Virus record (IMG/VR): IMGVR_UViG_3300037041_001183
Coordinates: 1-24,681 of that record
Length of the DNA: 24,681 bases
DNA from: a virus
Reading direction: 5' to 3' (one strand)
Shown: positions 4,208 through 17,376 of the stretch, piece after piece
Position numbering within the stretch: the first letter of the stretch is position 1
Layout: the number at the start of each line of letters is the position of its first letter
Translations under genes and position numbers: made by a program
The notes under the pieces: model-generated
Databases searched by the model: none
What the model was told of the DNA's origin: nothing
What the model saw: the letters and a program-made list of their open reading frames with translations, nothing else

Positions 4208-4361
4208 CTGGTGCCCCCTCTTCTTTTTTAGGTCGTTCTGCTTGAAATGCAACGATCACAAGCGCCTTTGCCGCCTCATCTAATGGCAGGTTGCCGTTCA
4301 ACGAGTAGTTCACAATTCCGTTCTCGTCGGTTGTTTTGATTAGTGTTAAGGATTCGATCAT
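4197..4361 (-). CDS. Hypothetical protein (54 aa), last gene of the late operon
   Basis: A 54-codon frame from ATG at 4361 to TAA at 4197-4199, with a clear GAGGAGAG ribosome binding site six bases or so before the start. The protein opens with a short beta-like block (ESLTLIKTTDENGIVNYSLN) followed by a helix (LDEAAKALVIVAFQ) and a charged tail. No family is recognised. It follows the stop of the Tal-like gene by 10 bases, so it belongs to the tail operon. Confidence 0.65.
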   Translation of the reverse strand: MIESLTLIKTTDENGIVNYSLNGNLPLDEAAKALVIVAFQAERPKKEEGAPVNP

Positions 4362-4371
4362 GTTTCTCTCC

Positions 4372-6900
4372 TCATGTCATGGATATCGTATGCGATGCTC
4401 CTAAGTAGTCGATAAACTGTAAGGCGTTTCCATCATAATTAATTGCTAAATATCCCGAACGGCTCCCATCGGATCGGGCGAAAAACCGCAACTCTCCTCC
4501 ATATTGTAACTTTAATTTCGACACTTCTATGAATTGCGAGTTTGCATTTATTGTCAGTCCTGATTGGTATTGCACGTAGTTGCTGCTTGTCAAGTTACCA
4601 TAAACTGTGATGGTAGTACCAGACCCAATCGTGCAGGCCCCCAATGTGCCCCTCACTGTAACGTTATTAAATTCGGCGCTGCCATCACCCTTAATCTGCC
4701 AACCTGCAGAGCCCACCGTAAAGGTCGTGCTTTGCATACCCCCATGAACGGTTAAGGTACTTGATGCATCAATATTCGTTACTTTAAGTGTCCCGGTAAA
4801 TTCCCCTGATGTGGCATAGACAGCCCCCCGGATTGTAGCTGAAGCAAAGTATGCAGTGCCATCACCTTTAATCTGCCAACCGGCGGGGGGACTGATAGTA
4901 AAGCCGGCACTCTGCATAGTACCGTTAATAGTGAGTGTCGACCCGGATTCAATATTCGTGGTTTTGAGGGTCCCCGTAAACTCTCCTGAGGTTGCCTTGA
5001 TTGCACCTTCTATGGATAGGGTGCTGCCGTTCCAGCTCAATTTAGGCGCACTGCTACCTCCGAGTTTCAGGGTGCCGTTCGTCAGGTTAATCTGCGACCC
5101 GAGTGTAGTGCTCCAGTTCGTGGATTCGAGGTTCCCCCGGATCTTGATATCGTTAAATTCAACGGACCCGCTACCCTTAATCAACCACCCGGACGTATCC
5201 GCAACGTATGAATCGCTCTGCATATTGCCGTGAACTGATAAGGTGCTGGAGGCATAGATGTTTGATGTCTTGAGAGTCCCGCTAAACTCTCCGGATGTGG
5301 CATAGATAACGCCCTTAATGGTGAGTGTTCCGGCGCTCTTATCCCATTTTACGCCCACATCCCCGGAATAATTGCCGATGATGATATCGCCTACATCAGT
5401 GCCTCCGACAATCGCCTTGAATACATCGTTTGTGCCATCTGTGATCTGGATGCCGGTGTTTACATCCGGGAATATCCGGACCCGCGCTCCCGATGCTGAT
5501 GAGTCATAAGTTCCCCCAACTTTCGCGGTTTTATCTGTGGGATTATATCCTGATGTGAATGTGCAATCCCCATCAATCTGAATATGGTTTGCCGCAATTT
5601 TCAGAGTTCCGGGAGGCGTTCCCTCAGTACTGGCATTTATTGAGGCAATAACAGATCCGCCAGTTACGGGAGTAAAATTAAGAGCCGTTATTTCAATGGT
5701 GTTTGCGGTTATTTCCCCGCCATTAATCGTAGTCTTTCCCGCGCTCTTCCACCCCTCTATAGTTACGGTGCCCTGGATCGTCACCTGCCCAGCACCAATC
5801 TGAACAGCCACATTCTGGGAAAGGCTCTGTTGTGATTTCACATCTGCAAACGAGTCGCTTAAATCCGGGGTGTTTGTGGACAGTTCAATCGTAATATTTT
5901 CCGGAGCGGAGAGATTGGTATCCACTCCGACGACTGATACATCTACGAGCAGGTTGTTTAGATCGCTGTTCACTACCCGGATCATCTGCCCGATCTCAAG
6001 GTTCTCATAATCGAAATCGAAATCAGAATGCTCTGCAAGGTTGACGGCATCCACCGTGTAATAGTAGATCGGGTTTTTGTACTGGGTGAGGACCTGGTTC
6101 GCCCATCTTAACAGGGTTGCAGGGTGCGTGATCCTACCATCCGTCTTGCGTTTCCGGGATATCCCGTAAGCAGTTTGCGAAGTTGTATCTTCGACATACT
6201 CATGCGCTTCGCCTGCATCGGTCAGGTTCAGGAGCCTCGAAACATCAGGGTTCTCAGCACCGTACGCGTACAGGCGATTGATAATCTGCGTGTAGTCTGT
6301 TTTTCTGGACACGCCTTTCATGTTTTTCTGGTATCGGATCTCCCGTATTGGAGAGCCGGATGGGGCATTATACCAGTTCAGCGCACGGTTTGAATCTACC
6401 TCTATATATCCCCCGAGATATTGGACGCACTCAAAGAGGGATTCGAGCATCCCGGCATTTTCAACCCGGAATGCAAATGGCGTTGTGGGCTGGATTGTGC
6501 CGACCGTGATCGCGGGCGTGCGGGCCTGCATTGCGAGGATGGCCGTGATGATCTGCGTGGGCGTCTTGGGGGTGACGGTCGTATCGTAAGTGATGTTATC
6601 TTCCTTCACAAGTTGAGAGATTACCCCGCTATAATTCGCATCGATGTAACTACCAGAAGAGGACCAGTGTTCGGCACAATCATCCAGTGTAAATAGATCT
6701 TCCCATCGCGCTTTGATCGTGTTGTAGATTTTGATATCATACGCAGATGTGAGATAGATCGCTTTCGGATCGCCGGCAGGTAAAGAGAATGATAACCCCG
6801 GGGTTTGGTTGATCTTCTTTGCTCGGCCAATACTGAACGCATTTTCGAGATACGCTGTCTTTGCCCCCGCCTGCGTGAATGCCCAGATTTGATAGGTCAT
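4372..6900 (-). CDS. Tal-like tail tip protein with repetitive C-terminal half (842 aa)
   Basis: The first 340 or so residues look like the N-terminal ring-forming part of prophage tail proteins (Prophage_tail/gp27-like fold), the central hub under the distal tail protein in siphoviruses. From about residue 350 the chain turns into glycine- and threonine-rich beta structure with three clear copies of ATSGEFxGTLK (about residues 532, 634 and 694), each followed by a 'STL.v.G.mqS' and a 'GW.IKGdG.a.f' element. Such repeats form elongated fibres. AAGGAG precedes the ATG at 6900. No peptidase or cell-wall hydrolase motif is visible, consistent with an archaeal S-layer host. In most siphoviruses this gene directly follows dit; here five other genes lie between. 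Confidence 0.82.
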   Translation of the reverse strand: MTYQIWAFTQAGAKTAYLENAFSIGRAKKINQTPGLSFSLPAGDPKAIYLTSAYDIKIYNTIKARWEDLFTLDDCAEHWSSSGSYIDANYSGVISQLVKEDNITYDTTVTPKTPTQIITAILAMQARTPAITVGTIQPTTPFAFRVENAGMLESLFECVQYLGGYIEVDSNRALNWYNAPSGSPIREIRYQKNMKGVSRKTDYTQIINRLYAYGAENPDVSRLLNLTDAGEAHEYVEDTTSQTAYGISRKRKTDGRITHPATLLRWANQVLTQYKNPIYYYTVDAVNLAEHSDFDFDYENLEIGQMIRVVNSDLNNLLVDVSVVGVDTNLSAPENITIELSTNTPDLSDSFADVKSQQSLSQNVAVQIGAGQVTIQGTVTIEGWKSAGKTTINGGEITANTIEITALNFTPVTGGSVIASINASTEGTPPGTLKIAANHIQIDGDCTFTSGYNPTDKTAKVGGTYDSSASGARVRIFPDVNTGIQITDGTNDVFKAIVGGTDVGDIIIGNYSGDVGVKWDKSAGTLTIKGVIYATSGEFSGTLKTSNIYASSTLSVHGNMQSDSYVADTSGWLIKGSGSVEFNDIKIRGNLESTNWSTTLGSQINLTNGTLKLGGSSAPKLSWNGSTLSIEGAIKATSGEFTGTLKTTNIESGSTLTINGTMQSAGFTISPPAGWQIKGDGTAYFASATIRGAVYATSGEFTGTLKVTNIDASSTLTVHGGMQSTTFTVGSAGWQIKGDGSAEFNNVTVRGTLGACTIGSGTTITVYGNLTSSNYVQYQSGLTINANSQFIEVSKLKLQYGGELRFFARSDGSRSGYLAINYDGNALQFIDYLGASHTISMT
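4766..5304 (-). repeat. Three imperfect tandem modules in the Tal-like gene
   Basis: Coding-strand copies of ATSGEF[ST]GTLKxxNI lie at about 5252-5304, 4948-4998 and 4766-4819. The first spacing is about 100 residues and the second about 60. Between them the elements 'STLTVHG.MQS' and 'GWQIKGDGSAEF' also recur. At DNA level the copies are diverged, so these are old protein-domain duplications, not recent DNA repeats. Confidence 0.7.
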
Positions 6901-6919
6901 ATTCTTGCAACTCCTTTTT

Positions 6920-7060
6920 TCATGATCCCCCTCGTTCGTAGAGTACGAACAAAGCGTCTATGGTATTCGACAAAGATCCGGATGCCCCGCAAAATGTGAA
7001 ATGACCTGCTTTGCTTAGTAAAGCGTCGTGCGTGGATTTTCGTATTTTGACTTCTATCAT
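6920..7060 (-). CDS. Small RHH/VapB-like protein (46 aa) inside the tail module
   Basis: A 46-codon frame from ATG at 7060 to TGA at 6920-6922. The sequence starts MIEVKIRKSTHDALLSKAG and ends SLSNTIDALFVLYERGGS. A short beta strand, a helix, and a second helix beginning with 'SLSNTID' follow the ribbon-helix-helix layout of archaeal VapB/CopG-type regulators. It lies in the 192-base gap between the lectin-like gene and the Tal-like gene, with GGGGAA just before the ATG. A perfect inverted repeat lies inside its coding sequence. No toxin partner is adjacent. It may be a stand-alone regulator or just a small structural protein that mimics the pattern. Confidence 0.52.
   Translation of the reverse strand: MIEVKIRKSTHDALLSKAGHFTFCGASGSLSNTIDALFVLYERGGS
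6934..6950. repeat. Perfect inverted repeat, 7-bp arms
   Basis: GTTCGTA-GAG-TACGAAC is a perfect palindrome with a three-base centre. It lies at the end of the RHH-like gene, 34 bases before the Tal start. It could be an operator for a dimeric regulator or an RNA hairpin controlling Tal translation. There is no T-run after it on the minus strand, so it is not a classical terminator. Confidence 0.5.
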
Positions 7061-7092
7061 TTCCCCATCCGGGTCATCTCATTTATTTCTAC

Positions 7093-8226
7093 TTACTTGT
7101 AACAAGCCCGCCCGCCAACAGCCGCATCGACATACGACGCAGCAACATACGCATTCACAAAGAAAGCGCCCGCACCCGCCGCATAACCCCAATGGCCACC
7201 GAATATCACCGCTCTGTTTCCAGTCCACGAGTACCCTGTATCGCAGAGGTAGGTGTTAAAGGAGGCGTTAGTAACCTGCGTTGCCGCGATGAACAGGTAA
7301 TCATACGTGCTGGAATAGATCGGGAGAGCTGCTTCTTCTCCATAGATTGTCGCCATGTTCAATCCGGTGTCAACGTAGGGATGCTCATACGTACCGCTAT
7401 CGTTGAATCCGTGATTGGCGATCCAGACGCGGCGTTCGAGTAGTTTTATACCATCGAACCACTTGTAAATATTCCCCCAGAAGTTCTCAATGCCGAATAT
7501 GCTGAACGACGCCAATCCCGCGCCCTGCGTAGATTCTCCTGACCCGTTGCCGGTATCTACACTCCCCGATCCAACTCCTGCGGTGAATCCGGTATTGCAG
7601 GCAGAGGTAGTATCCACTCGCCCTCGGTATACTGACTGCGAGTTGAGCGTGCAGTTCCTGATGATGAACAGTAACTGGATTGCAGAGACCGTGTTCCAGT
7701 CAATCAACTCCCAACCGGTCCCTCTTGCCCGGGCTCGTGTGCGGAACGTTGGTAGATCCTGCGATACGCCCAGTGCAACCCCTGCAGTTGACAGTAATTT
7801 GTAGGGAGAGCCCGCTTCGAATGCCCCTTCAAACGCCGAGACGTAGATAAAGTTTTTATCAACTCCATCGACCACGAATGCCGGGTGGATTTTATATCCT
7901 GCCCTTGGCGATGGTGAGATCGTATACCGGTACTTGTTTGCCAGCGAGTCGTTCCGATAGTAAAACTTCGGGATCTCGACCATTACCTGATCGGTTGCAT
8001 GAGTGTATGAGAACCCTGCTTTTCCATAATATGCACTCACCACCCCGGCATCTGTCAGGTTACACCTGCTGATTGCTCCGAATAATTTATGCCCTGCCCA
8101 CATGGCAGCCGTCATTGTGATCGCGTTGCCATACTGATCTGTCTGCACGAGAGTGGGGGAGGTGTTGTTTGTCGTCCACTCCACCCCGATGGTGTTGACG
8201 TCGTAATTCGATTTGATTATCCGCAT
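7093..8226 (-). CDS. C-type-lectin-like receptor-binding protein, DGR-target-like C-terminus (377 aa)
   Basis: The chain has the hallmarks of formylglycine-generating-enzyme/C-type-lectin fold proteins used by phages as adhesins. These include an early MVEIPKFYYRND, a central block with WELIDWNTVSAIQLLFIIR (about residues 171-190), GIENFWGNIYKWFDG (about 248-262), and a final RAVIFGGHWGYAAGAG ... VGGRACYK. This last block corresponds to the site that diversity-generating retroelements mutate in related proteins. A strong AAGGAGGT site precedes ATG 8226. It follows the fibre assembly chaperone directly and is probably the tail-tip adhesin contacting the host surface. No reverse transcriptase or template repeat is in the window, so current DGR activity is unproven; a non-diversified lectin domain is the alternative. 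Confidence 0.75.
   Translation of the reverse strand: MRIIKSNYDVNTIGVEWTTNNTSPTLVQTDQYGNAITMTAAMWAGHKLFGAISRCNLTDAGVVSAYYGKAGFSYTHATDQVMVEIPKFYYRNDSLANKYRYTISPSPRAGYKIHPAFVVDGVDKNFIYVSAFEGAFEAGSPYKLLSTAGVALGVSQDLPTFRTRARARGTGWELIDWNTVSAIQLLFIIRNCTLNSQSVYRGRVDTTSACNTGFTAGVGSGSVDTGNGSGESTQGAGLASFSIFGIENFWGNIYKWFDGIKLLERRVWIANHGFNDSGTYEHPYVDTGLNMATIYGEEAALPIYSSTYDYLFIAATQVTNASFNTYLCDTGYSWTGNRAVIFGGHWGYAAGAGAFFVNAYVAASYVDAAVGGRACYK
7096..7200 (-). other. Candidate variable region (VR-like), adenine-poor
   Basis: The last 35 codons of the lectin-like gene encode GGHWGY ... GGRACYK. A hand count gives only 10 adenines in 105 coding-strand bases. Adenine-directed mutagenesis from an A-rich template repeat leaves such depletion in variable regions. 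The layout (GGxW, small and aromatic residues alternating, GGR near the end) matches known target C-termini. The template repeat is not in the window. Confidence 0.4.
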
Positions 8227-8227
8227 A

Positions 8228-8683
8228 TTACCTCCTTGAGATGGAGGGAATTATGACTGCGATTGATGCGGGAATGCTCTCGTTCAGTTTTGCCGTGCCT
8301 TCATCGGAATCGCTGTAGGTTTGTGGAAGGTCTCGCAATGACTGCCGATATGTTGCTATCGTTTTCTTCTCTTCGTCGGATAAGGGAGAGTCTGCCAGTT
8401 GGGTCCAGTCGGTTTCTTTCAGTTGTTCGTTCCTTCTCCCTCGTATGATATCCCATCTCTCTGTCTCAAGGATTTCTGCTTTTTTGGGGTCGATAACGGG
8501 CATTCCGTCTACGATAGAGACGAACCGATCACCGCTTACAACGTCCGGTTCGTTGCCGTTTGCAATCCAGTCCTCGATGTCTTTGCTGTCGTTCGGGACG
8601 ATTCGGGATTCTCCCCCGATATATTGCTGGATCACGCGATAGTTTACCTCGTCCGAATATACAAAAATATACTTGTATGTCAT
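8228..8683 (-). CDS. Tail fibre assembly chaperone-like protein (Phage_tail_APC type, 151 aa)
   Basis: The C-terminal half carries the typical signature of phage tail fibre assembly/APC proteins: RRNEQLKETDWTQLADSPLS (about residues 82-101) followed by a spacer and YRQSLRDLPQTY (about 111-122). Family knowledge: such proteins help fold or attach receptor-binding fibres and sit beside the fibre gene. This one lies between a fibre (upstream) and the lectin-like adhesin (downstream), one base from the latter's start, which fits that role. The N-terminal 75 residues are not recognised. GAGGTGAG precedes the ATG. Confidence 0.75.
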   Translation of the reverse strand: MTYKYIFVYSDEVNYRVIQQYIGGESRIVPNDSKDIEDWIANGNEPDVVSGDRFVSIVDGMPVIDPKKAEILETERWDIIRGRRNEQLKETDWTQLADSPLSDEEKKTIATYRQSLRDLPQTYSDSDEGTAKLNESIPASIAVIIPSISRR

Positions 8684-8692
8684 CTTCTCACC

Positions 8693-10105
8693 TCACGGAT
8701 GTACGAACATAATCGATACTACAAGGTCGTGTGCATCACCAGTGCCGCCTTTCTTGACGGCTATCTCAATTGCCTCTGCTGGATTGATATCATACGCCGC
8801 TGTGGCAATATCGACAACAGTTGAATACCAGGTTGCATCTGCGGCAATCGTGAGACCGTCTGCCGAAGTGTTCAGTTCTGTTGCGTTGATCAGGACCGTG
8901 GCTTTTCCATGGGTGCCGTGCGAGTCGTGGACTTTTGACCAGACTTTATACGCGACTACGTAGGATTTTGATGTTCTCCAGACAACTGCTGCGTTGAGGT
9001 CGCTGCCTATGAGGGCCGTGTTGTCAGCATCCTCGTAGTATCCATTGACCACGATATCCACCTGCTCGATTCTCGATGCATCACCCAGGGATAGTGCCGT
9101 CACATCTCCTCCAAGTGGAGCGCCTGCTACTGTCAGGAGGTTCGATGTGATCGCAGTGACCATGCCGTAATAAACCGTCCCGCCGATAGTATATTTCAGC
9201 GGAGATCCGACCGGGATTGTTGCCGTCTGATCAGTCCCCATTGTGATAGTGCTGGTGCTGGCAGGTGTCGCCGTGAAATTGGCAAGTGCTGTCCAGAATG
9301 TTGCTCCCCCAGCTGCTGTTTCCCACGTGGCGTCTCCATCTGCATCTGAAGTGAGGACTTTTCCCAAGCCAGGGGTGCCTCCTGTTATTTTGACTGCGGG
9401 TGTAGTTACGGTCCCAGTGAATGTCGGACTTGCTATTGGAGCCCGACTTGTATCTGAATCATGAACGTGGTCGCGTCTTGCGGCGACCATTGCGGATCCT
9501 GGGGCTGCCGGGCCATTCATCACGGGATTTGTTGTGTCGAATAGCGCCGCGTTTTTGTATATCGTTTCAGTATTATCAATTGCTACGACGTTTCTAAGAA
9601 GAGTTGCTGCCGGTGCAGTTGCCCGCAATAATAAGCCGTGTACCGACGTGGTCGCATTCAGATCGGTGTTGTTATCCGGCGCACCGAAATCATCGAGTTT
9701 CTGATTGGTTGCCGCTTTACCCGTATCAAGTGCCGTGAAGTTATCGCGGATCTGTTCATACACTCCTGTTGTGAACATCACTGCGATCTTTGTGCCGCTC
9801 ACCCACGCCCGGGCTATGCCTATATTGGTTTCGTGCGTGTCAGATTGCACGCCCCGGGTTATTGTCGTAAGGTTTCCCGGACCCGTTTCCGCAGAGCAAC
9901 CTGTAATCGCGATCTCTTCTGTGTATGTCTCGTCTGCATGATCGAATCCAATCACAATACCTTTTGTGATCAACTGCCCGGATGAGTCATAGAATACGTT
10001 AGTCTCTGCAACCGGGATTGAGGTTGTTTCGGTGCTGAGGATATCTCCCGTCAGCAACGTAGAAACGCTGTTCGTTTTTGCTTTTGTCAGTGTAAGATAT
10101 ACCAT
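8693..10105 (-). CDS. Tail fibre/baseplate protein (470 aa)
   Basis: I place the start at ATG 10105, 9 bases after GGAG; a TTG two codons upstream is possible but too close to that site. The first 120 or so residues form a beta-rich attachment domain (about residues 60-110 include EIAITGCSAETGPGNLTTIT and RGVQSDTH, a motif usual in phage baseplate proteins). Next come a helical link (FTALDTGKAATNQKLDD) and the fibre motif HVHDSDTSRAPIASPTFTGT with AVKITGGTPGLGKVLTSDAD (about residues 217-257), a widespread tail-fibre shaft sequence. The last 190 residues are a probable beta-sandwich tip. No enzymatic motif is seen. Confidence 0.75.
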   Translation of the reverse strand: MVYLTLTKAKTNSVSTLLTGDILSTETTSIPVAETNVFYDSSGQLITKGIVIGFDHADETYTEEIAITGCSAETGPGNLTTITRGVQSDTHETNIGIARAWVSGTKIAVMFTTGVYEQIRDNFTALDTGKAATNQKLDDFGAPDNNTDLNATTSVHGLLLRATAPAATLLRNVVAIDNTETIYKNAALFDTTNPVMNGPAAPGSAMVAARRDHVHDSDTSRAPIASPTFTGTVTTPAVKITGGTPGLGKVLTSDADGDATWETAAGGATFWTALANFTATPASTSTITMGTDQTATIPVGSPLKYTIGGTVYYGMVTAITSNLLTVAGAPLGGDVTALSLGDASRIEQVDIVVNGYYEDADNTALIGSDLNAAVVWRTSKSYVVAYKVWSKVHDSHGTHGKATVLINATELNTSADGLTIAADATWYSTVVDIATAAYDINPAEAIEIAVKKGGTGDAHDLVVSIMFVHP

Positions 10106-10107
10106 TT

Positions 10108-11313
10108 TCAAATGCTCCTGTCCTTTTTAGAGACAACAATTGTTACTGTTCTTGATCCTAATGCGTCAGTGTAGACTACCGTATTCTCTCCGGGCAACAT
10201 TGCAGGGAAATCCCCTGTGAACCCGACCATTGCATTCGCTCCGTCGTTTTTGACAGTGAAATCATTTTTATCAATGCACAAGGTTTTACCCGCCGCTAAA
10301 GTGCCCGAAAATGTGAACGTCCACGAATCAATAGCCCGGAGCACCGCATAGATATCCGCTGCCGTGTCGATCTGGGATGATAACAGATGGGGAATCAGGT
10401 ATTTCGCATAGACATCAGATTTCGTGTCAATGTGAGCGCCAAGAAGCTGAGAGAGTTCAAACCCTGCATGGATGTTTGAAGTTGTGATCAGTGTTGCTTC
10501 TGCTTCCCATGCCGCAGATAATCTCGCAGAAATGTCTGAATCAGTGTCAAGATATGCCGCCAATGCCAGTAGCAGGGCCGTATGAACATCGCTGTTTGTG
10601 TCCTCATATCCCCGTAACAGGTGGTCGAGTCTTAGCCGTGCTTCCTGATCTGTGCCGTTATCCAGAAGTCCCGTCAGGTAACCGGATAGCCGGAGCCGGG
10701 CATAGAGATCTGAAACCGTATCTTCGTGTGAAGAAAGACCGTGGTTGATTCTCAGCCGGGCATATGCATCCGTTTGTGCATCCACATATGCCGAAAATGA
10801 TAATAGTAGTGCTGCGTGGATATCTGCGGTTGTTGCGGAATATGCCGATAGGGAGAGAGTAAGGGCTAATCGTGCACCTACATCTGCATATGTGCCGGAT
10901 TGCGCTTGTGGTGTTGTTCTCGCACTCCTGCGACTGTATCCGGAGCGGCTATATTGCCACTTCCCCCAATCGGAGGGAGTGCCGGTAACCGTTCGGGTTT
11001 TCAGGAGTTGTGTGATTTGCGGGCGGGCATACGTGCTGGATTCAGTATCCACAAACACGGTTAAGTTATCATCAAGCCGGAGCCGGGCATAGATATCTAC
11101 CCCTGAATCTGAATGCGCCGATAGTGTCAGCGGAATTTTGGCATAGATATCCGAGTTCGTGTCAAAGTACGATGCAAGATTGTCGCCAATACGGAGCCGG
11201 GCTGCCTGATCAGAAAAAGAATCAAGATAGGAGGATATATTGACGGGCCATACTAACCCGCCCTGTCGGCTGTATGCTGAGCCGCGATTAAATCCATCCC
11301 TACCCCATCGCAT
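10108..11313 (-). CDS. 18/20-residue repeat protein fused to the second half of a Dit C-terminal domain (401 aa)
   Basis: Residues 1-26 are a basic Arg/Gly start (MRWGRDGFNRGSAYSRQGG). Residues about 27-330 hold some 14 copies of a repeat with the pattern 'DT.SDiyARLRL...L..y', spaced 18 or 20 residues, with one interruption at about 107-135 that resembles the N-terminus (KWQYSRSGYSRRS). Residues 331-401 (WTFTFSGTLAAGKTLCID, then GFTGDFPAMLPGENTVV, then VTIVVSKKDRSI) match the second half of the beta-sandwich C-terminal domain of siphovirus distal tail proteins. That half is missing from the distal tail protein encoded at 11753-12325. The regular Asp/Ala spacing suggests a solenoid or fibre. 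No strong ribosome binding site precedes ATG 11313. Confidence 0.75.
   Translation of the reverse strand: MRWGRDGFNRGSAYSRQGGLVWPVNISSYLDSFSDQAARLRIGDNLASYFDTNSDIYAKIPLTLSAHSDSGVDIYARLRLDDNLTVFVDTESSTYARPQITQLLKTRTVTGTPSDWGKWQYSRSGYSRRSARTTPQAQSGTYADVGARLALTLSLSAYSATTADIHAALLLSFSAYVDAQTDAYARLRINHGLSSHEDTVSDLYARLRLSGYLTGLLDNGTDQEARLRLDHLLRGYEDTNSDVHTALLLALAAYLDTDSDISARLSAAWEAEATLITTSNIHAGFELSQLLGAHIDTKSDVYAKYLIPHLLSSQIDTAADIYAVLRAIDSWTFTFSGTLAAGKTLCIDKNDFTVKNDGANAMVGFTGDFPAMLPGENTVVYTDALGSRTVTIVVSKKDRSI
10330..11235 (-). repeat. About 14 tandem 18/20-residue protein repeats
   Basis: The unit core is SDIYARLRL or a close variant (SDLYARLRLSGYLTG, TDQEARLRLDHLLRG, SDVHTALLLALAAYL, SDVYAKYLIPHLLSS). 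Units of 18 residues lose two positions after the RLRL stretch. Coding-strand DNA copies share a recurrent stretch around 'agccgggcatagatatc' on the plus strand but are diverged. Expansion probably occurred by unequal recombination in the past. Confidence 0.75.
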
Positions 11314-11328
11314 TTTTCAGCCCCGGGG

Positions 11329-11748
11329 TTATACTGTTGCCTGTGTCAATCGAACTTTGAGTTCTCCAATCGGGAACTTCACCGGGTCGTTTAACTGAAC
11401 CGAGCGGCTCACTTCCAGGGGACCACACGCGATCATGTTGCCGCCTGCTGCCAGTTGGTCGAAGATTGCCACATAATCCACTGTGCCCCATGCGGCGCCG
11501 GCAATACCGAAATCGACATCGGCAGAGTTAGCAATTGTGCCGGTTGGGCTGGAGAATGTTGCGGAGCCCCATGTGACGGCCTCCCGGGCATAGTCTGTTG
11601 CCGGGGGTGCGGCGAGTTCTGATCCTGCTCCAAGCGGGTTGCCGTTGTAAAGTGCCACGTAAACCGTGGGGCTGGTGTAGCTTGCTTTTCCCATCAGGTG
11701 ATCAAGTGCTTTCTTGATCGCAAATTCTGTGAATCCTTCATAAACCAT
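11329..11748 (-). CDS. gp80-like phage tail-associated protein (139 aa)
   Basis: The whole chain matches a short structural family common in tailed phages (often labelled gp80-like or tail fibre protein). It has an N-terminal helix (FTEFAIKKALDHLMGKASYT), then 'TVYVALYNGNP', a Gly/Ala loop with 'YAREAVTWGSATF', then 'AAWGTVDYVAIFDQLAAGGN' and 'FPIGELKVRLTQATV'. These proteins are thought to sit at the tail tip or fibre, with roles not well defined. It starts five bases after the stop of the truncated distal tail protein and is followed by the repeat protein that carries the rest of that domain. Length is typical for the family. Confidence 0.75.
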   Translation of the reverse strand: MVYEGFTEFAIKKALDHLMGKASYTSPTVYVALYNGNPLGAGSELAAPPATDYAREAVTWGSATFSSPTGTIANSADVDFGIAGAAWGTVDYVAIFDQLAAGGNMIACGPLEVSRSVQLNDPVKFPIGELKVRLTQATV

Positions 11749-11752
11749 GATT

Positions 11753-12325
11753 TCAAACCTCGTAGTAATTCGTGATAGTGAATCCAGTTATCGGGCTGGC
11801 CCCGTTGTTCTTAACGCAAATCTTAGCAGGTGTCTCGACATTGCCCGAAGAGGCAATGGTCATTGACCCCCCGCTGGTTGTAATCGCTGCACTGGTCGCG
11901 TCTTCCGGCTCGTAAGCATACGGATCGTCGGCGATCAGGTTGAGCGTAAATTCACTGCATCCTACCCATGCACGGTCAAACGGGATTTGACCAGCATATC
12001 TGACCGTATATGTAAGCGTCGGTGCGTCGTCAAAGATTAATGTGAGTTGCCGGGGTCTGCCTTGCACACCCACGAGCACCCGGGCAAACGCTCTGATGAG
12101 CGTGTCCAAGGCAGCGGCATCCGCACAGTTCCGGAAATCGCAGGGTAAGGAGAACGTGCGGGGGCCGATATCAGAGTCAAACCAATAATTGCCCGCCCTG
12201 CCGGGGATCTCTACTGTGCGGTCTCTGGTTTCTGGCAGGAATGGTTGGCCCGGGGCGTATCGTAATGTGACGCCGTAGGTGCTGCAAGGGATTCCATCGA
12301 TGGTAAAGCCTCCATTGTCGGTCAT
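11753..12325 (-). CDS. Distal tail protein (Dit), C-terminal domain cut short (190 aa)
   Basis: Residues 1-130 match the Sipho_tail (Dit N-terminal) domain: ETRDRTVEIPGRAGNYWFD (about 32-50), FSLPCDFRNCADAAALDTLI (about 58-77), FARVLVGVQGRPRQLTLIFDD (80-100), and FTLNLIADDPYAYEPE (126-141). This domain forms the hexameric ring joining tube and tip. From about residue 145 the C-terminal beta-sandwich begins (SGNVETPAKICVKNNGASPI) but the chain stops at TNYYEV, where full-length relatives continue for about 70 more residues. The missing part is found at the end of the 401-residue protein 440 bases downstream. The start overlaps the tape measure stop (ATGA). Dit identity is secure by sequence and position. 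Confidence 0.82.
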   Translation of the reverse strand: MTDNGGFTIDGIPCSTYGVTLRYAPGQPFLPETRDRTVEIPGRAGNYWFDSDIGPRTFSLPCDFRNCADAAALDTLIRAFARVLVGVQGRPRQLTLIFDDAPTLTYTVRYAGQIPFDRAWVGCSEFTLNLIADDPYAYEPEDATSAAITTSGGSMTIASSGNVETPAKICVKNNGASPITGFTITNYYEV

Positions 12326-14799
12326 GATATGCCTCGACCGCGATTGGTGCGTGTTATCAAAGTTTGAAGTTCGATGGCGATTGCCTTTATATCGCCGTCA
12401 TTTCTGACGTTGAACGTGTTTCCTGTGATGGTTACGCCTCCCATAGCGCCAGCACTGCCCCCTGATAATGGAATCACGGCTTCGGGTCCGGCTTCCCCAA
12501 TCATAGCAAGTGTCGGTGATGTGACAATGCCGCCGGATGCAAGGCGCGGGATTGGCGCGATATCGAATCCTATGTGTGTCGGCGGGCCACCGAACAGGTC
12601 CGGGATGTCGAAAGATAGCGCGTTTACGCCTTCGATCATGCTGTTGATGCTGTCGATGGCGATGTTGATCATGCCGGTGATGCTGCCTGTTATCCCGTCC
12701 ACTATACCCATGATGAAATCTGAAGTGGCTGAGATCGTGTCTTCCATACCCCCCCAAAGGTTATCCCATGCGTCTTGTAGGGGGTAGATCAGAGCGTCGA
12801 ACGCCCATTCAATTGCATCTGTGAGCCCCTCGACAATCCCGGTAATAATATTAGAAGCGCTTTCAGTCACCCATGAAACATCATCCCAGAAGGATTCCCA
12901 CTGGTCTGATATTGCGCCAATAGTCCAATCAAACGCCCATTCTATGCCCTCCATCAATGCGTCAATCAGTCCGGTGATGAGATCGGCTGATTCCTGTGCA
13001 ACCCACGTGATGGCATTCCAGACATCTTCCCAATCATACCCGAGCGCCTGTAAGGTCATTGAGACAAGGCCGATGGGGCCGAGCAGGACCGTGAACGCAA
13101 CCCCGATCACATCTATGCCCGCAGTAGCTTCTGTGAGCCAGCCGATGAACGGGGCGATCACACTGTCCGAGAGCCATTGCCAAGCAACACCGAGAGCGTC
13201 TGCACATGCACTGACGACTCCGAACTCTGTTTCAAGCAGGATTATAACTGCTACAAGTCCGACGATAGCTGCAACGACTAACACAATGGGATTTGCAGCG
13301 AGGAATAATAGTGAGGTATTTACTAATCCTATCAGCGCTGGCAATCCGGTAATACCGATAATGAGCGGTCCTGAAATTGACATCGCCGCTGCCAATCCAT
13401 CAAGGGGTTCAAGGGTTGTCCCGGCGGATAGCGCAAACTCATCGAAGGCGGATTTCATCTTATCGGTTGATCCGATGCTCGTTTCAGCCGCATCCGCATA
13501 CGCCTTTGTGGACCCGCCAGCGCCCTCGATTTTAACTTTATATGCATCTACTTGATCTTTTGTGAGCCCCAACGCATCATAAAACGCCTCCGTTTTGTTC
13601 GTCGAATCGCCCATTAAAAATACAAGTTCTTTTTGAGATAACCCGTTTAAGACAATCGCCGCCTCGTTATCGGTTTGCGCCTTCGTATTATCTTTTTGCG
13701 CTTGAGTGTTATCTGTGGTTTTGGTTTTCAAGTCTGTTTGTCTGGCGATTAAATCGTCGTGTGAATACGTGAGACTTTCAATCCGCAGTTTTTGCTCTTC
13801 CAGACGGATGTTAAACTCCTGTGCGGTTTCGTTTTCGCCTTTCCCCTCGGTCTGCATTTTTTGCAGATCAATTTGGGCGGATTGCATCGCGAGTGAGTTT
13901 TCTTTAAGTCCGAGCGTCGTATCTCTGGTTGCAGTCGATAGGTCTTTTTGGGTTTGGGCGAGGTCTTTTTCGGCACGGTCAAGATCTTTTGATGTTTGTT
14001 CGAGGTCTTTGGATTGCGTGATTGCATCTGATAATGCTGTCTGATAATCCCCGAACTGCGTATCCATTTCGCCGACTGCAAGGCGCAGCGCCTTTGTTGC
14101 CGCCGTGCCCTGCAAGCCCGCGTCAGACATAGCCAATAACAGCGCTTCGGTATCTTCCATCGACAGCCCCATCGCATCAAGTTTCGGGGCCAGCACACCT
14201 ACCGTTCCGGCGAAATCTTCAAACGAGATCGTGCTGTTTTTAGTCAGGTATGTGATACCGTCAACATGATCCCCCACTTCTGTGAGCGGGATGTCGAACG
14301 CATTAAACGCAGGAATTAATGATTCAGTAACGGTTGCAGCACTTGTCCCGGTTGCGTCTCCTAAATCATCAAATGCTGCAGCGGTTGCTGCCAGCTGATC
14401 TTCGGTCAATCCAGATCTTGCCAACAAATCAAACGTCGCAACTACATCATCGAGTGGGAATCCCGCATCTGAACTGGCAAGAGCGAGGTCCCGCAGTTCC
14501 TCAGTAGTACTTCCAAGAGTGATCGCTGTGCCTGCCAACTGGGAATTAATTTCTCTGGCGTTATCAGTGAGTGCCAGAACCGCAACTCCTGCGGTGGTCA
14601 TGCCCGCCCCCAACGCAGTAATCTCGGTTTTATTGTCTTTAATCGTCTGCGTGAATCCCTTGAACGTGCTATCGGATTTTGCAGCGGCATCGTCGGTTTC
14701 GGTTAATCCTTTTTTGACTTCCGATACTCCCGCCGTAAATCCGGTTGTATCCGCGAGAAAATTGACAATTAGACTTTCAGCAGATTCCATTAACCCCAT
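12322..14799 (-). CDS. Tail tape measure protein (825 aa)
   Basis: This protein sets tail length and fills the tube before DNA ejection. The N-terminal 240 residues resemble the conserved tape-measure core (FPLDDVVATFDLLARSG, SFEDFAGTVGVLAPKLDAMG, GLQGTAATKALRLAVGEM). Residues about 250-380 are a long charged coiled coil. Residues about 470-525 are hydrophobic and membrane-like (LIIGITGLPALIGLVNTSLL onward). Residues 590-715 hold three Trp-rich 44-residue repeats. Residues about 750-775 carry the family motif LASGGIVTSPTLAMIGEAGP. GGAGGAGGT lies before ATG 14799, whose first base overlaps the stop of the GT frame (TAATG). By the usual 1.5 angstrom per residue rule the tail would be about 120 nm. 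Confidence 0.9.
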   Translation of the reverse strand: MGLMESAESLIVNFLADTTGFTAGVSEVKKGLTETDDAAAKSDSTFKGFTQTIKDNKTEITALGAGMTTAGVAVLALTDNAREINSQLAGTAITLGSTTEELRDLALASSDAGFPLDDVVATFDLLARSGLTEDQLAATAAAFDDLGDATGTSAATVTESLIPAFNAFDIPLTEVGDHVDGITYLTKNSTISFEDFAGTVGVLAPKLDAMGLSMEDTEALLLAMSDAGLQGTAATKALRLAVGEMDTQFGDYQTALSDAITQSKDLEQTSKDLDRAEKDLAQTQKDLSTATRDTTLGLKENSLAMQSAQIDLQKMQTEGKGENETAQEFNIRLEEQKLRIESLTYSHDDLIARQTDLKTKTTDNTQAQKDNTKAQTDNEAAIVLNGLSQKELVFLMGDSTNKTEAFYDALGLTKDQVDAYKVKIEGAGGSTKAYADAAETSIGSTDKMKSAFDEFALSAGTTLEPLDGLAAAMSISGPLIIGITGLPALIGLVNTSLLFLAANPIVLVVAAIVGLVAVIILLETEFGVVSACADALGVAWQWLSDSVIAPFIGWLTEATAGIDVIGVAFTVLLGPIGLVSMTLQALGYDWEDVWNAITWVAQESADLITGLIDALMEGIEWAFDWTIGAISDQWESFWDDVSWVTESASNIITGIVEGLTDAIEWAFDALIYPLQDAWDNLWGGMEDTISATSDFIMGIVDGITGSITGMINIAIDSINSMIEGVNALSFDIPDLFGGPPTHIGFDIAPIPRLASGGIVTSPTLAMIGEAGPEAVIPLSGGSAGAMGGVTITGNTFNVRNDGDIKAIAIELQTLITRTNRGRGIS
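12700..13032 (-). repeat. 44-residue Trp repeats in the tape measure protein
   Basis: Units begin with W at residues 590, 634 and 678 (coding positions 13032, 12900 and 12768). Each reads W[ED]xxWxxxxW...ESA..IITG[IL]...L...IEWAFD, with the third copy partial. Regular Trp spacing is common in tape measures and matches the helical symmetry of the tube. Confidence 0.8.
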
Positions 14800-15496
14800 T
14801 ATTTCTTACCTCCTCCTTTACACCAGAGTTTCAGCGTATCAAAGATCTTCTGGGCGTCGTTCTTTTTCTTAATGGGTGTTTCAGAGTCAACCTTCCCGCA
14901 GTTCACGAAATCGGACGGTTTATACGGAGTAGATTTCTTTTTCGGGTTGCGGTTGGCATTCGCTATTACCGAACATATCAATCCTACCCGCTCGTTTTCT
15001 GCATACATTTCTTTTGTCCTCCGTTCGTCTTGTGCTGCAATATAGGGGTGAAATTCGCCGGGAGTGAGATCCCAGAACTCAGCAGGCGTTAACCCGCTGA
15101 CCCGGTACGCGACGGCTTGGCAGTCTTTGAGGTATGCTCCGAGGCTGCGGGGATGATCGGGGTCTGGCTCGGGTTTTTTCCTTTGTCATCACCGAGTTTC
15201 CCGAGCCAGTCTTGTGCGGTTTCCATGATATCTTTCATAACAGAAATAAACATTTTCTGCCCTTTTTCACGGATGAAATCTTCACAAAGATCTCCTGCTT
15301 GGTCAAGCGTGATACTGGTGCTTCCGTACGCGTTTATGCCCGCACACAAGATCCCCCGATACGCAGAAAGGGGGGCTTTTTGGAAATCCTCTAAGTTCCC
15401 TCCCTGCCGGTTGAAATCTGCAAGTGCGTTGAATGAGATCCGCACGTTGTAGACTTTCCCGTTTACCTCGAAAGTTGAATGTCTCCTGCCGTCCAT
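14799..15496 (-). CDS. Tail assembly chaperone GT fusion, made by -1 frameshift (about 232 aa)
   Basis: The G frame runs from ATG 15496; a slippery A AAA AAC at 15179-15173 lies exactly in the X XXY YYZ register of that frame. Slipping back one base gives a further 124 codons ending with TAA at 14799-14801. The added part has the T-domain features of lambda-like gpGT: SGLTPAEFWDLTPGEFHPYI, then RRTKEMYAENERVGLI and KSTPYKPSDFV. The region of this second frame between 15173 and 15008 has no start codon yet is well conserved in type, which only makes sense as a fusion. In lambda the GT product recruits the tube protein to the tape measure. A 69-residue internal start at 15008 is possible but has no good ribosome binding site. 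Confidence 0.78.
15089..15496 (-). CDS. Tail assembly chaperone G-like protein (135 aa)
   Basis: This is the unshifted product. Residues about 8-95 match the G-type tail chaperone fold: FEVNGKVYNVRISFNALADF, then SAYRGILCAGINAYGSTSIT and LDQAGDLCEDFIREKG. The last 27 residues after the slippery site are Pro/Ser/Thr-rich and look unstructured, as expected of the short product. AGGTGAG precedes ATG 15496. It lies between the tube protein and tape measure genes, the classical location. G and GT together coat the tape measure during tail assembly. Confidence 0.85.
   Translation of the reverse strand: MDGRRHSTFEVNGKVYNVRISFNALADFNRQGGNLEDFQKAPLSAYRGILCAGINAYGSTSITLDQAGDLCEDFIREKGQKMFISVMKDIMETAQDWLGKLGDDKGKNPSQTPIIPAASEHTSKTAKPSRTGSAG
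15173..15179 (-). promoter_or_regulatory. Programmed -1 ribosomal frameshift site, A AAA AAC
   Basis: The zero-frame codons are GGA AAA AAC, so the heptamer A AAA AAC is in the exact register for simultaneous P- and A-site slippage. The following -1 frame is open for 124 codons and encodes the T domain. I did not find an obvious strong hairpin directly downstream, but the following 60 bases are GC-rich (CCCGAGCC and CCCGCAGCCTCGG). Confidence 0.8.
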
Positions 15497-15507
15497 GTCT
15501 CACCTGA

Positions 15508-16260
15508 TTATGGGTGTGCTGTGTTTCCGCCGCATACACGTATCCAGTAGATCTTCGGGGTCTTGCTGTTTTCCGTGACAGCGATTGATACATACGTCAC
15601 CTGCCCAGATCCCACATTCGTTGTTAAATTCCCGGATGCAACCCCTGTTGCAACGGAGGTCCCATTGATATAACAGGTTCCTGCGGTGAATACCGGGGTG
15701 ATTTTGATGTATGCCGTATCCGAGTAAGATTCGAGATCATACTCATAGACTACCGCAGCTGCTGCCGGAACGGGGGTCAATGGGTTTGCGTCGTCATCGA
15801 CAATACCAAAGAACGTCGTGGTTAATCCCGTTGCCCATGTGGTGACCGGATCGGAGAGTCTGCCGTTTACCGTGACTTCCATTTCGATGAATGCCGGGCC
15901 GTCTCCGTCGATGTTGAGTTTGCATTTGGCAATCTGCCCGCTGAAATTGAACGAGATCCCGCCGGGGGTTGGGCCGAATGTTGGGGGCAATACGATAGTC
16001 CATGTATCGAAATGACGGTCGTAAATGTCATCCAGTAGGGAGTTCTGGGCGGTTGAGCCGATGTAATACACCTTGAATGCAAGGTTCTCATTATCGATCC
16101 ACGTTACGCATTTTGTTCGCACTCCGCCGATGTTGTTCTGTGCGGAAGTGTCCTTTACATCTGCGCTCTGTCCGGGGGTGCTTGGCTCATACATTTCGCC
16201 AATGACCAGCCCGTTTTGCATTATAAACGTTCCGAGTGTTGATTTCGCTTCTTCAGTCAT
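15508..16260 (-). CDS. Major tail (tube) protein with extra C-terminal beta-sandwich (250 aa)
   Basis: Residues 1-135 resemble the lambda-V-like tube subunit: a loop-rich start (NGLVIGEMYEPSTPGQSADV), then DRHFDTWTIVLPP and ISFNFSGQIAKCKLNIDGDG with FIEMEVTVNGRLSDP, the end of the tube fold. Residues about 165-245 form a separate domain with the pattern of cadherin-like/Ig-like beta-sandwiches (SDTAYIKITPVFTAGTCYIN, then VSIAVTENSKTPKIYWIRV). Such domains decorate the outside of many phage tails. GGAG lies 9 bases before ATG 16260. Position next to the G/GT genes confirms the role. Confidence 0.85.
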   Translation of the reverse strand: MTEEAKSTLGTFIMQNGLVIGEMYEPSTPGQSADVKDTSAQNNIGGVRTKCVTWIDNENLAFKVYYIGSTAQNSLLDDIYDRHFDTWTIVLPPTFGPTPGGISFNFSGQIAKCKLNIDGDGPAFIEMEVTVNGRLSDPVTTWATGLTTTFFGIVDDDANPLTPVPAAAAVVYEYDLESYSDTAYIKITPVFTAGTCYINGTSVATGVASGNLTTNVGSGQVTYVSIAVTENSKTPKIYWIRVCGGNTAHP

Positions 16261-16274
16261 TTGTTTGCTCCTTG

Positions 16275-16700
16275 TTACAGTCTGTAATCATACAATACGA
16301 TGACATCCCGATGCCGCATGTAAAGCACCGGAATAAGGTCTGTGTTCGCGTCCGGGCGTGAGCCTCCATCCGTGATTTTCTGGATGAAAACTTTCCCGGT
16401 TCCTGCCGTTAACAGGGTGTTCACCGTGCGATGCAATGCGTCACGGACGATCCGCGAGATTTTCCCCGCTTCACCGCCGCCCGTGCCGGTTGATAAGATT
16501 GTGCATTGTATCCGGGTTGATACCCAGCCGCCTGTGCTGTGGTCTACCGGGGTTGAATCGCTGATTTCTGATACGATGATGGCCGGGTATGTGGGATTTG
16601 ATGGCAGAGTGTTTCGATATATGCGAGTGCTAACCAACGTCGTTAATGGCGTATATGCCAGTAATTTCGTGATAATTGCATACTCTACGTCGTCACTCAT
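16275..16700 (-). CDS. Tail terminator-like protein (DUF3168/gp17-like, 141 aa)
   Basis: The features are an N-terminal helix (EYAIITKLLAYTPLTTLVST), 'RIYRNTLPSNPTYPAIIVSE', then a beta hairpin with RIQCTILSTGTGGGEAG, a helix (KISRIVRDALHRTVNTL), and a closing strand pair ending VIVLYDYRL. This is the layout of tail completion/terminator proteins that cap the tube at the neck. It lies directly before the tube gene and its start overlaps the stop of the gp10-like gene (ATGA), the standard order in siphoviruses. Confidence 0.8.
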   Translation of the reverse strand: MSDDVEYAIITKLLAYTPLTTLVSTRIYRNTLPSNPTYPAIIVSEISDSTPVDHSTGGWVSTRIQCTILSTGTGGGEAGKISRIVRDALHRTVNTLLTAGTGKVFIQKITDGGSRPDANTDLIPVLYMRHRDVIVLYDYRL

Positions 16701-17083
16701 TCGGTCATCTTCTCCAAGAACATTGTTTTATATTTCTCACGGTGCTGGTCCATCGCCGCCCGGATATACGGTTTCGGGGCTTGGTGGTATGACCTGCCGA
16801 GTTTGTCCTTACCGACGAATCCATACTCTACCCTGCGGGCGTATTCGACATTAGTCCCAACAACCACATACTGCGCTCCTTTCCCCTGCTGAAATGTCCC
16901 GGAAGTGGGTTCGATATGAATCGAGTGCAGGAGCGTGTGTGTAATCCACGGCGTTATGGCTTTCGCATCGTTTTCGTATTCTTGTGCAATCAGCCGAAGT
17001 GCAATTGATTGGTTTTTATCAGTTTTTTTCTCGGAGTCGTCAAGCGCCTTCATGAGTTCCGGGAGACCCTTGATTGTGGCCAT
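16697..17083 (-). CDS. HK97 gp10-like tail completion protein (128 aa)
   Basis: The motifs IKGLPELMKALDD (residues 3-15), a long helix with 'QEYENDAKAITPWITHTLLHS', then YVVVGTNVEYARRVEYGFVG and KPYIRAAMDQHREKY are the signature of HK97 gp10-like neck/tail proteins ('EYA..vEyG...P.Py.r.A'). I prefer ATG 17083; a GTG one codon upstream overlaps the previous stop as GTGA, but the AGGTG site leaves almost no spacing for it. It works at the head-tail junction together with the terminator encoded next. Confidence 0.85.
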   Translation of the reverse strand: MATIKGLPELMKALDDSEKKTDKNQSIALRLIAQEYENDAKAITPWITHTLLHSIHIEPTSGTFQQGKGAQYVVVGTNVEYARRVEYGFVGKDKLGRSYHQAPKPYIRAAMDQHREKYKTMFLEKMTE

Positions 17084-17376
17084 CACGCACCTATCCAGAA
17101 CTTATCCACAACCCAGAGCAGTAATCCCCATGCTGCAACCAGCCCCGTGCCTCCAATGGCGAAGTATGTGTCGTGGTTTTTTACTTTGTCCATTGCAGTT
17201 GATACGGATTCGGGAGAGGGGTATTTCGCAGAGTTCAACCGTACCGCCTCGATCTGTTCTGCGTAGTTTGTTTGGAATGCCTCGATTTTCGTAATTACTT
17301 TCTCGATATTTTCCAGTTTTATGCAGATCGTGTTCAGTGTAATCCGCTGGCTGCATTCGTGTTCTTCATCGTTCAT
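17083..17376 (-). CDS. Small coiled-coil protein with one C-terminal membrane segment (97 aa)
   Basis: Residues about 10-70 form a charged coiled coil (ICIKLENIEKVITKIEAFQ), followed by one hydrophobic segment at about 73-91 (FAIGGTGLVAAWGLLLWVVD) and a short tail. The topology resembles XhlA-type membrane proteins and some phage holin-associated proteins. No sequence family is recognised. It sits between neck genes, with ATGA/GTGA overlaps on both sides, so it is made together with them. A lysis, membrane anchoring or ejection role is possible; the sequence does not decide. Confidence 0.75.
   Translation of the reverse strand: MNDEEHECSQRITLNTICIKLENIEKVITKIEAFQTNYAEQIEAVRLNSAKYPSPESVSTAMDKVKNHDTYFAIGGTGLVAAWGLLLWVVDKFWIGA

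Follow-up and report, generated by a model that had tools for sequence, protein, structure and literature searches.

A Virus Family in Which the C-Terminal Domain of Dit Is Divided Over Two Genes

Gene Content of the Locus

The window, meaning the whole stretch of DNA that was analysed, covers 24,681 nt of the IMG/VR virus record IMGVR_UViG_3300037041_001183. The tail genes and features discussed below all lie on the minus strand:

12322..14799, minus strand: tape measure protein (TMP), 825 aa (PF10145 E 3e-19; PHROG_58 E 7e-29)
11753..12325, minus strand: truncated Dit, 190 aa (PF05709 E 4e-13; PHROG_33/202 Dit E 3e-19)
11756..11860, minus strand: stub of the Dit (residues 156-190), comprising C-terminal-domain strands 1 and 2 (alignment to intact Dits)
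11757..11761, minus strand: GAGGT, likely Shine-Dalgarno site for the gp80-like gene (upstream sequences of 13 loci)
11329..11748, minus strand: gp80-like tail/fibre protein, 139 aa, separating the Dit pieces (PF23140 Gp80 E 4e-31)
10108..11313, minus strand: repeat protein with the Dit C-half, 401 aa, consisting of an R/D-rich N-terminal motif, 20-residue repeats and the C-half
11254..11313, minus strand: N-terminal motif MRWGRDGFNRG... of the repeat protein (N-termini compared by eye)
10324..11253, minus strand: variable spacer of about 20-residue repeats of the LLsaylDTdSDiyArLrI type (autocorrelation)
10111..10323, minus strand: C-half of Dit (residues 331-401), galectin-like domain from strand 3 on (PF22768, hhalign)
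8693..10111, minus strand: next gene of the adhesion cassette, 472 aa, overlapping the preceding stop
4372..6900, minus strand: Tal / prophage endopeptidase tail protein, 842 aa (PF06605 E 6e-35)

The dit gene directly follows the tape measure gene, with which it overlaps by 4 bases. It does not directly precede tal; several genes of an adhesion cassette lie between the two in the window. Within this cassette, the 472-aa protein (8693..10111) belongs to a family with a conserved N-terminus and a variable C-terminal part. A PHROG_5302 tail protein encoded at 7093-8226 of the window has a C-terminus resembling the variable domain of diversity-generating retroelements, and a reverse-transcriptase-like gene lies close by in the relatives L020 (11705-12709) and L021 (11812-12885); none was seen in the window.

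The Two Pieces of the C-Terminal Domain

The window Dit, whose sequence ends with ...GFTITNYYEV, is composed of a complete ring/belt domain and the first part of a C-terminal galectin-like domain. An earlier note on this DNA had claimed that the 190-residue Dit stops partway through its C-terminal domain, that the missing part forms the last 71 residues of a protein encoded two genes downstream, and that both blocks lie in one chain in ordinary Dits, and all three claims are borne out. In Pfam, the ring domain PF05709 matches the Dit and the C-terminal domain PF22768 has no match in it, while residues 331-401 of the repeat protein (WTFTFSGTL...KKDRSI) match positions 30-91 of the 97 positions of PF22768 (E 5e-4, under the curated cut-off). 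The Dit family PHROG_33 is covered at positions 33-219 by the Dit and at positions 211-271 by the repeat protein.

The expectation that a profile comparison would place the two pieces in consecutive, non-overlapping ranges of the same domain was confirmed with hhalign, using profiles of the 13 split Dits and the 13 C-halves of the family against a profile of 14 intact Dits. On the 247 positions of the intact-Dit profile, the split Dit corresponds to positions 2-169 (probability 99.9%) and the C-half to positions 179-245 (probability 96.7%). The nine uncovered positions between the pieces represent strand 2, which in a plain alignment is supplied by the end of the stub, GFTITNYYEV. Against the intact profile the stub alone reaches a probability of 4%, being too short to score by itself, and its assignment therefore rests on the alignment of the whole Dit. 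Two strands of the stub are predicted at residues 167-173 and 181-189 (DSSP on the AF2 model). Since strand 2 is supplied by the stub and the C-half begins with strand 3, the break maps to the strand 2-3 turn.

The split is confirmed as real and as a conserved trait of the family. It is not a chance event, because it is common to all 13 independent loci described below and because a standalone copy of the C-half in locus L003, which has the best PF22768 score in the family, passes the Pfam cut-off (28.3 vs 25 bits).

Breadth of the Split Family

Searching IMG/VR with the Dit yielded 12 further independent loci besides the window, apart from duplicates and fragments (L022, from the genome_contigs set, L030, L031 and L011). 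In all 13 loci the gene order is the same, comprising TMP (where covered), the truncated Dit of 176-194 aa, the gp80-like gene encoding 134-145 aa and a protein ending in the C-half. The shortest Dit, with 176 aa (L009:7617-8147), has an in-frame deletion of 17 residues in its ring domain, which is otherwise highly conserved. Each record searched contains one Dit ring domain; in G008 a single gene gives two weak partial matches to it. None of the 13 loci was found to contain an intact Dit, PF22768 positions 1-16 are absent from every split-family record, and the C-half lacks the first two strands of the domain in every member. Using the N-terminal domain of Tal as an independent anchor retrieved nine contigs, each of which already belonged to the split set. 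Thus, the search for an unsplit dit among relatives, which the earlier note had called for, uncovered none among the 13 loci or the Tal-anchored matches. Neither a C-half without a truncated Dit nor a C-half beside an intact Dit was ever encountered in these genomes.

In contrast to the split family, the 15 Dits of other phages and viral contigs that were found by similarity are all single-chain proteins, and the profile alignment places both blocks within such a chain. Where the flanks of intact Dits are annotated, TMP lies on one side of the gene and the next tail gene on the other. Among intact proteins, the one most clearly related to the C-half is the 240-aa Dit of L019, in which the C-half profile matches residues 175-239 with an E-value of 2.5e-26 that is inflated by L019 being a row of that profile; the profile without L019 gives E 7e-9. 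A tblastn search of reference phages with the C-half proteins gave no sign of a split and weak matches only, several of which fall in the C-terminal parts of intact Dits; for the match in Bacillus phage vB_BboS-125, the record has no Dit annotated beside it. In a sequence search of the PDB, the family profiles retrieved no Dit, the single weak link being that of L019 to 2x8k. One of the duplicates, L022 (JAFDAI010000065.1), is a 7937-base contig that matches the viral contig L010 and is contained in a MAG (G013) labelled Deltaproteobacteria, where it is probably misbinned virus DNA. Fifty genomes of the class of this MAG contained no match, a search in which no control matched either.

The C-Half Protein and Its Variable N-Terminal Part

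The protein carrying the C-half varies in length from 135 to 1014 aa across the family, with an N-part of 64 to 943 residues. These N-parts mostly consist of 20-residue repeats, which are clear in 10 of the 13 loci even where the repeat sequences are unrelated; repeat types include the LDTDSDIYARL type and the LSGTGNVNVSGYGHL type. In the window, the spacer shows an autocorrelation peak at 20 residues (0.36 vs a null maximum of -0.53 +/- 0.05), the DNA of the spacer (10324..11253) contains no tandem repeat, and its repeats match no Pfam domain. An N-terminal motif rich in R/D or FNR was recognised by eye in similar form in 12 of the 13 loci and is absent from L002. There, a 943-residue N-part precedes the C-half in a protein of 1014 aa, with a few of the same repeats ahead of the C-half and no convincing match in Pfam, PHROG or PDB. 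L002 also encodes an extra 115-aa protein with CxxC pairs (zinc-ribbon-like; L002:9016-9363) between the gp80-like gene and the gene of the 1014-aa protein.

The C-half is portable, as it ends proteins with unrelated N-parts and also occurs alone. In L003, a 195-aa C-half protein is accompanied by a second, bare C-half gene of 75 aa (L003:12603-12830) directly upstream of tal, whose product offers hardly any further residues that could stand in for the missing strands. This bare C-half could be a remnant of the end of an ancestral dit, as its site matches that of the end of an intact dit, or it could possibly be a second plug. The repeat array is one of several interchangeable N-parts and is not essential. 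A PHROG of 173 aa whose function is unannotated, phrog_31951, was matched by the C-half protein of each of the eight loci that were scanned (the window, L002, L003, L008, L010 with E 0.014 only, L020, L021 and L029). It can be re-read as the Dit C-half protein, which would suggest a role for that PHROG.

Selection, Translation Signals and Co-Variation

The ring domain, the stub and the C-half are all under purifying selection, with pN/pS values of 0.29, 0.42 and 0.34, respectively, and pN below pS in 78 of 78 pairs. The stub is kept in all 13 viruses, with T165, P166, A167, N173, G175, G181 and Y188 invariant. In most of the loci, plausible Shine-Dalgarno sequences precede the downstream genes. 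The codons of the final Dit residues, Y-E-V, contain the likely ribosome-binding site GAGGT of the gp80-like gene, an overlap that alone would keep these residues conserved; their conservation is therefore at least partly translational. The truncation of Dit is hence a settled gene boundary.

Two conserved cysteines, Cys170 in strand 1 of the stub and Cys346 (Cys16 of the C-half) in the strand GKTLCID, are both present in 12 of the 13 viruses and both missing in the remaining one (L020), and none of the 15 intact Dits has the pair. This pattern hints at a possible inter-chain disulfide, for which the covariation amounts to one evolutionary event, the single loss in L020; both cysteines may also face outward. 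In Mantel tests, stub and C-half correlate weakly once ring and gp80 are accounted for (partial r 0.31, p 0.026), less strongly than gp80 and C-half do (0.64), and sequence co-variation therefore looks like co-inheritance of the whole cassette. A specific co-evolution of stub and C-half, as judged by distance correlation, is unsupported beyond this co-inheritance.

Structure Models

The AF2 model of the Dit is of low confidence (pLDDT 58.5), and its ring domain matches known Dits, namely that of SPP1 (2x8k) with a Z-score of 9.4 over residues 3-134 and those of TP901-1 and p2 with Z-scores of about 8-9. For the C-half alone, AF2 gave a pLDDT of 50.6 and a pTM of 0.36 with no PDB match, and a Foldseek search with this low-confidence model returned nothing meaningful. 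The low confidence may stem from the shallow alignments of 13-14 sequences. For the C-half, a poor model is also what would be expected of an incomplete domain, which we take as weak evidence.

A Proposed Two-Piece Dit

The reading that we favour, with a probability of roughly 70%, is that these viruses possess a two-piece Dit and that completion of its split galectin-like domain docks a fibre on the tail ring. In this scheme, dit would encode the ring domain plus strands 1 and 2 of the galectin-like domain at the periphery, and the other strands would come from the last 71 residues of a distinct, modular adhesin/spacer protein from the same gene cluster. Six Dit stubs at the ring periphery would each take up one C-half, presumably in a 6:6 arrangement, and thereby dock a fibre-like protein that would project from the strand 2-3 turn, its free N-terminus pointing outward, and would be expected to have a receptor role. 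Because adhesin and ring lie on two chains, the adhesin could be swapped or lengthened with the ring gene left untouched, and in L003 two different C-half proteins could share one ring. Judged from the sequences, it is plausible that stub and C-half rebuild one domain by strand complementation: the two co-occur perfectly in all 13 loci, the stub is conserved yet too short for a domain, and the break lies near the insertion sites of evolved Dits and of the p2 arm. A further-reaching version, in which the tail tip would present six incomplete ring domains as sockets for any protein ending in a C-half and a Cys170-Cys16 disulfide would lock the plug, is tentative and in our view rather doubtful; if true, the rings of viruses with two C-half genes, such as L003, would be mixed and carry fibres of two kinds.

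It could instead be that the ring domain suffices for Dit function, as in lambda, and that the stub is a leftover on the ring. The C-half would then be a self-folding captured module whose missing strands come from another chain or from the spacer, and its docking site would lie elsewhere, such as on Tal or the gp80-like protein. Some Dits do lack a galectin domain (PMC7291167, PMC9437275), the strongest sequence co-variation of the C-half is with gp80, and in G004, G005, G011 and G000 the PF22768 matches start at positions 17-26, slightly upstream of the C-half, so that the spacer could supply one strand. However, a leftover would not be expected to show the invariant positions and purifying selection seen in the stub of all 13 viruses, the 75-aa C-half of L003 has almost nothing with which to complete itself, and the strict association of the C-half with a truncated Dit in these genomes speaks against a freely captured module. 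We therefore regard such an arrangement as unlikely.

Considerably less probable still is that the C-half self-associates, by domain swapping or in a fibre trimer, and that the fibre is attached through its N-terminal R/D motif. Trimerisation is common among phage fibres, and the similar form of the motif in 12 of the 13 loci would fit such an attachment; yet L002 keeps the C-half without having the motif, and L003 has a C-half without any N-part. That the break is an artefact or is mended ahead of protein production (assembly error, frameshift, intron or intein) found no support and is hardly credible, as the same break recurs in 13 independent contigs, a complete gp80-like gene with its own ribosome-binding site separates the halves, L002 has a further gene between them, and the C-half is in frame with its upstream ORF in all loci. 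The lack of any Rfam match at E<=1 means that no known intron family is involved, and on this ground, together with the 13 contigs and the separate ribosome-binding sites, an intron, a frameshift and an assembly artefact were rejected.

Comparison with Known Systems

The Dit of the SPP1 gp19.1 type (PF05709 and PF22768; 2x8k) shares with the split Dit a ring domain, a galectin-like domain that is whole when the two pieces are taken jointly, and a gene position after the tape measure gene. In the split family, however, the C-terminal domain is divided over two genes and tal is not the next gene. By these features the window Dit does not belong to the standard Dits, since part of its C-terminal domain lies on another chain and tal does not follow; it would nevertheless work like one.

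Evolved Dits carry carbohydrate-binding modules in loops of the galectin domain, and in the Dit of phage p2 an arm inserted after strand 1 holds the receptor-binding protein (PMC7291167, PMC9437275, PMC8540738, PMC9692632). Like the split family, the evolved Dits of Lactobacillus phage J-1 and of streptococcal and lactococcal phages have extra material at a galectin loop near the strand 2-4 region. In those proteins the insert remains within one chain, whereas the chain of the split Dit is interrupted and the added material starts independently, with a free N-terminus. The best explanation is that the split family represents a "trans" version of the evolved Dit that is made of two chains. Apparently the same plan in one chain is seen in the 522-aa Dit of Listeria phage A006, assigned to the evolved class by its length, which by eye consists of an N-part, an insert of ~270 residues and an end of ~60 residues. 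The arm-and-hand of the p2 Dit (2wzp) likewise uses the periphery of the galectin domain as docking site for the receptor-binding protein, but there the arm holds that protein, whereas in the split family the fibre itself would be expected to contribute part of the domain.

A precedent for sharing one beta-sandwich between two baseplate proteins is found in Tuc2009, where domain 2 of BppA and an extension of BppU jointly form a titin-like domain (PMC7291167), although these are other proteins with another fold and do not belong to the Dit ring. The proposed principle, an incomplete beta domain completed in trans, corresponds to the donor-strand complementation of chaperone-usher pili. Those show no homology to the split Dit, and here a small stub would be completed by most of a domain. 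No report of a split Dit or a strand-complemented baseplate was found in the open-access literature, a scope that most subscription papers lie outside.

Origin and Exchange

The earlier note had suggested that a gp80-like gene and a repeat array were inserted into dit. Judged by gene order, the insertion of a receptor-binding cassette between two dit halves would indeed be the simplest history, because TMP, Dit and Tal are adjacent in intact relatives and because L003 has its bare C-half directly before tal. The searches found no intermediate between intact and split dit, and the direction and steps of the insertion are deduced from gene order. As to what was inserted, the gp80-like gene and the repeat array do both lie between the halves, but the array is just one of the interchangeable N-parts. 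In comparison with the L004 contig (IMGVR_UViG_3300037487_001088), the window is 91-95% identical in the head genes and 75-96% identical over much of the other side, while its tail module, from about 17.3 kb to 4.3 kb (4300-17370), is only ~66-68% identical. Since the identity of the tail is below that of its flanks, the tail module with both Dit pieces has probably been exchanged as a unit, in keeping with the joint inheritance of the cassette suggested by the distance correlations.

Significance and Hosts

Dit is a hub in the tails of siphoviruses, and placing receptor-binding modules within its galectin domain is an established theme. A stable family in which this domain is shared out between a ring gene and a fibre gene would reveal another means by which exchangeable fibres are attached. 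Moreover, the split Dit would represent a natural split domain whose assembly is testable by simple co-expression.

The sequences also point to archaea, perhaps methanogens, as the hosts of the split-Dit viruses, because the L007 contig encodes a PCNA-family sliding clamp (PF02747, E 1e-6) and the adhesion cassettes of L005 and L007 encode PKD-domain proteins. The latter (L005:7594-9198 and L007:10700-12013) combine a signal-peptide-like N-terminus with PKD domains and resemble archaeal surface proteins, that of L005 being glycine-rich as well.
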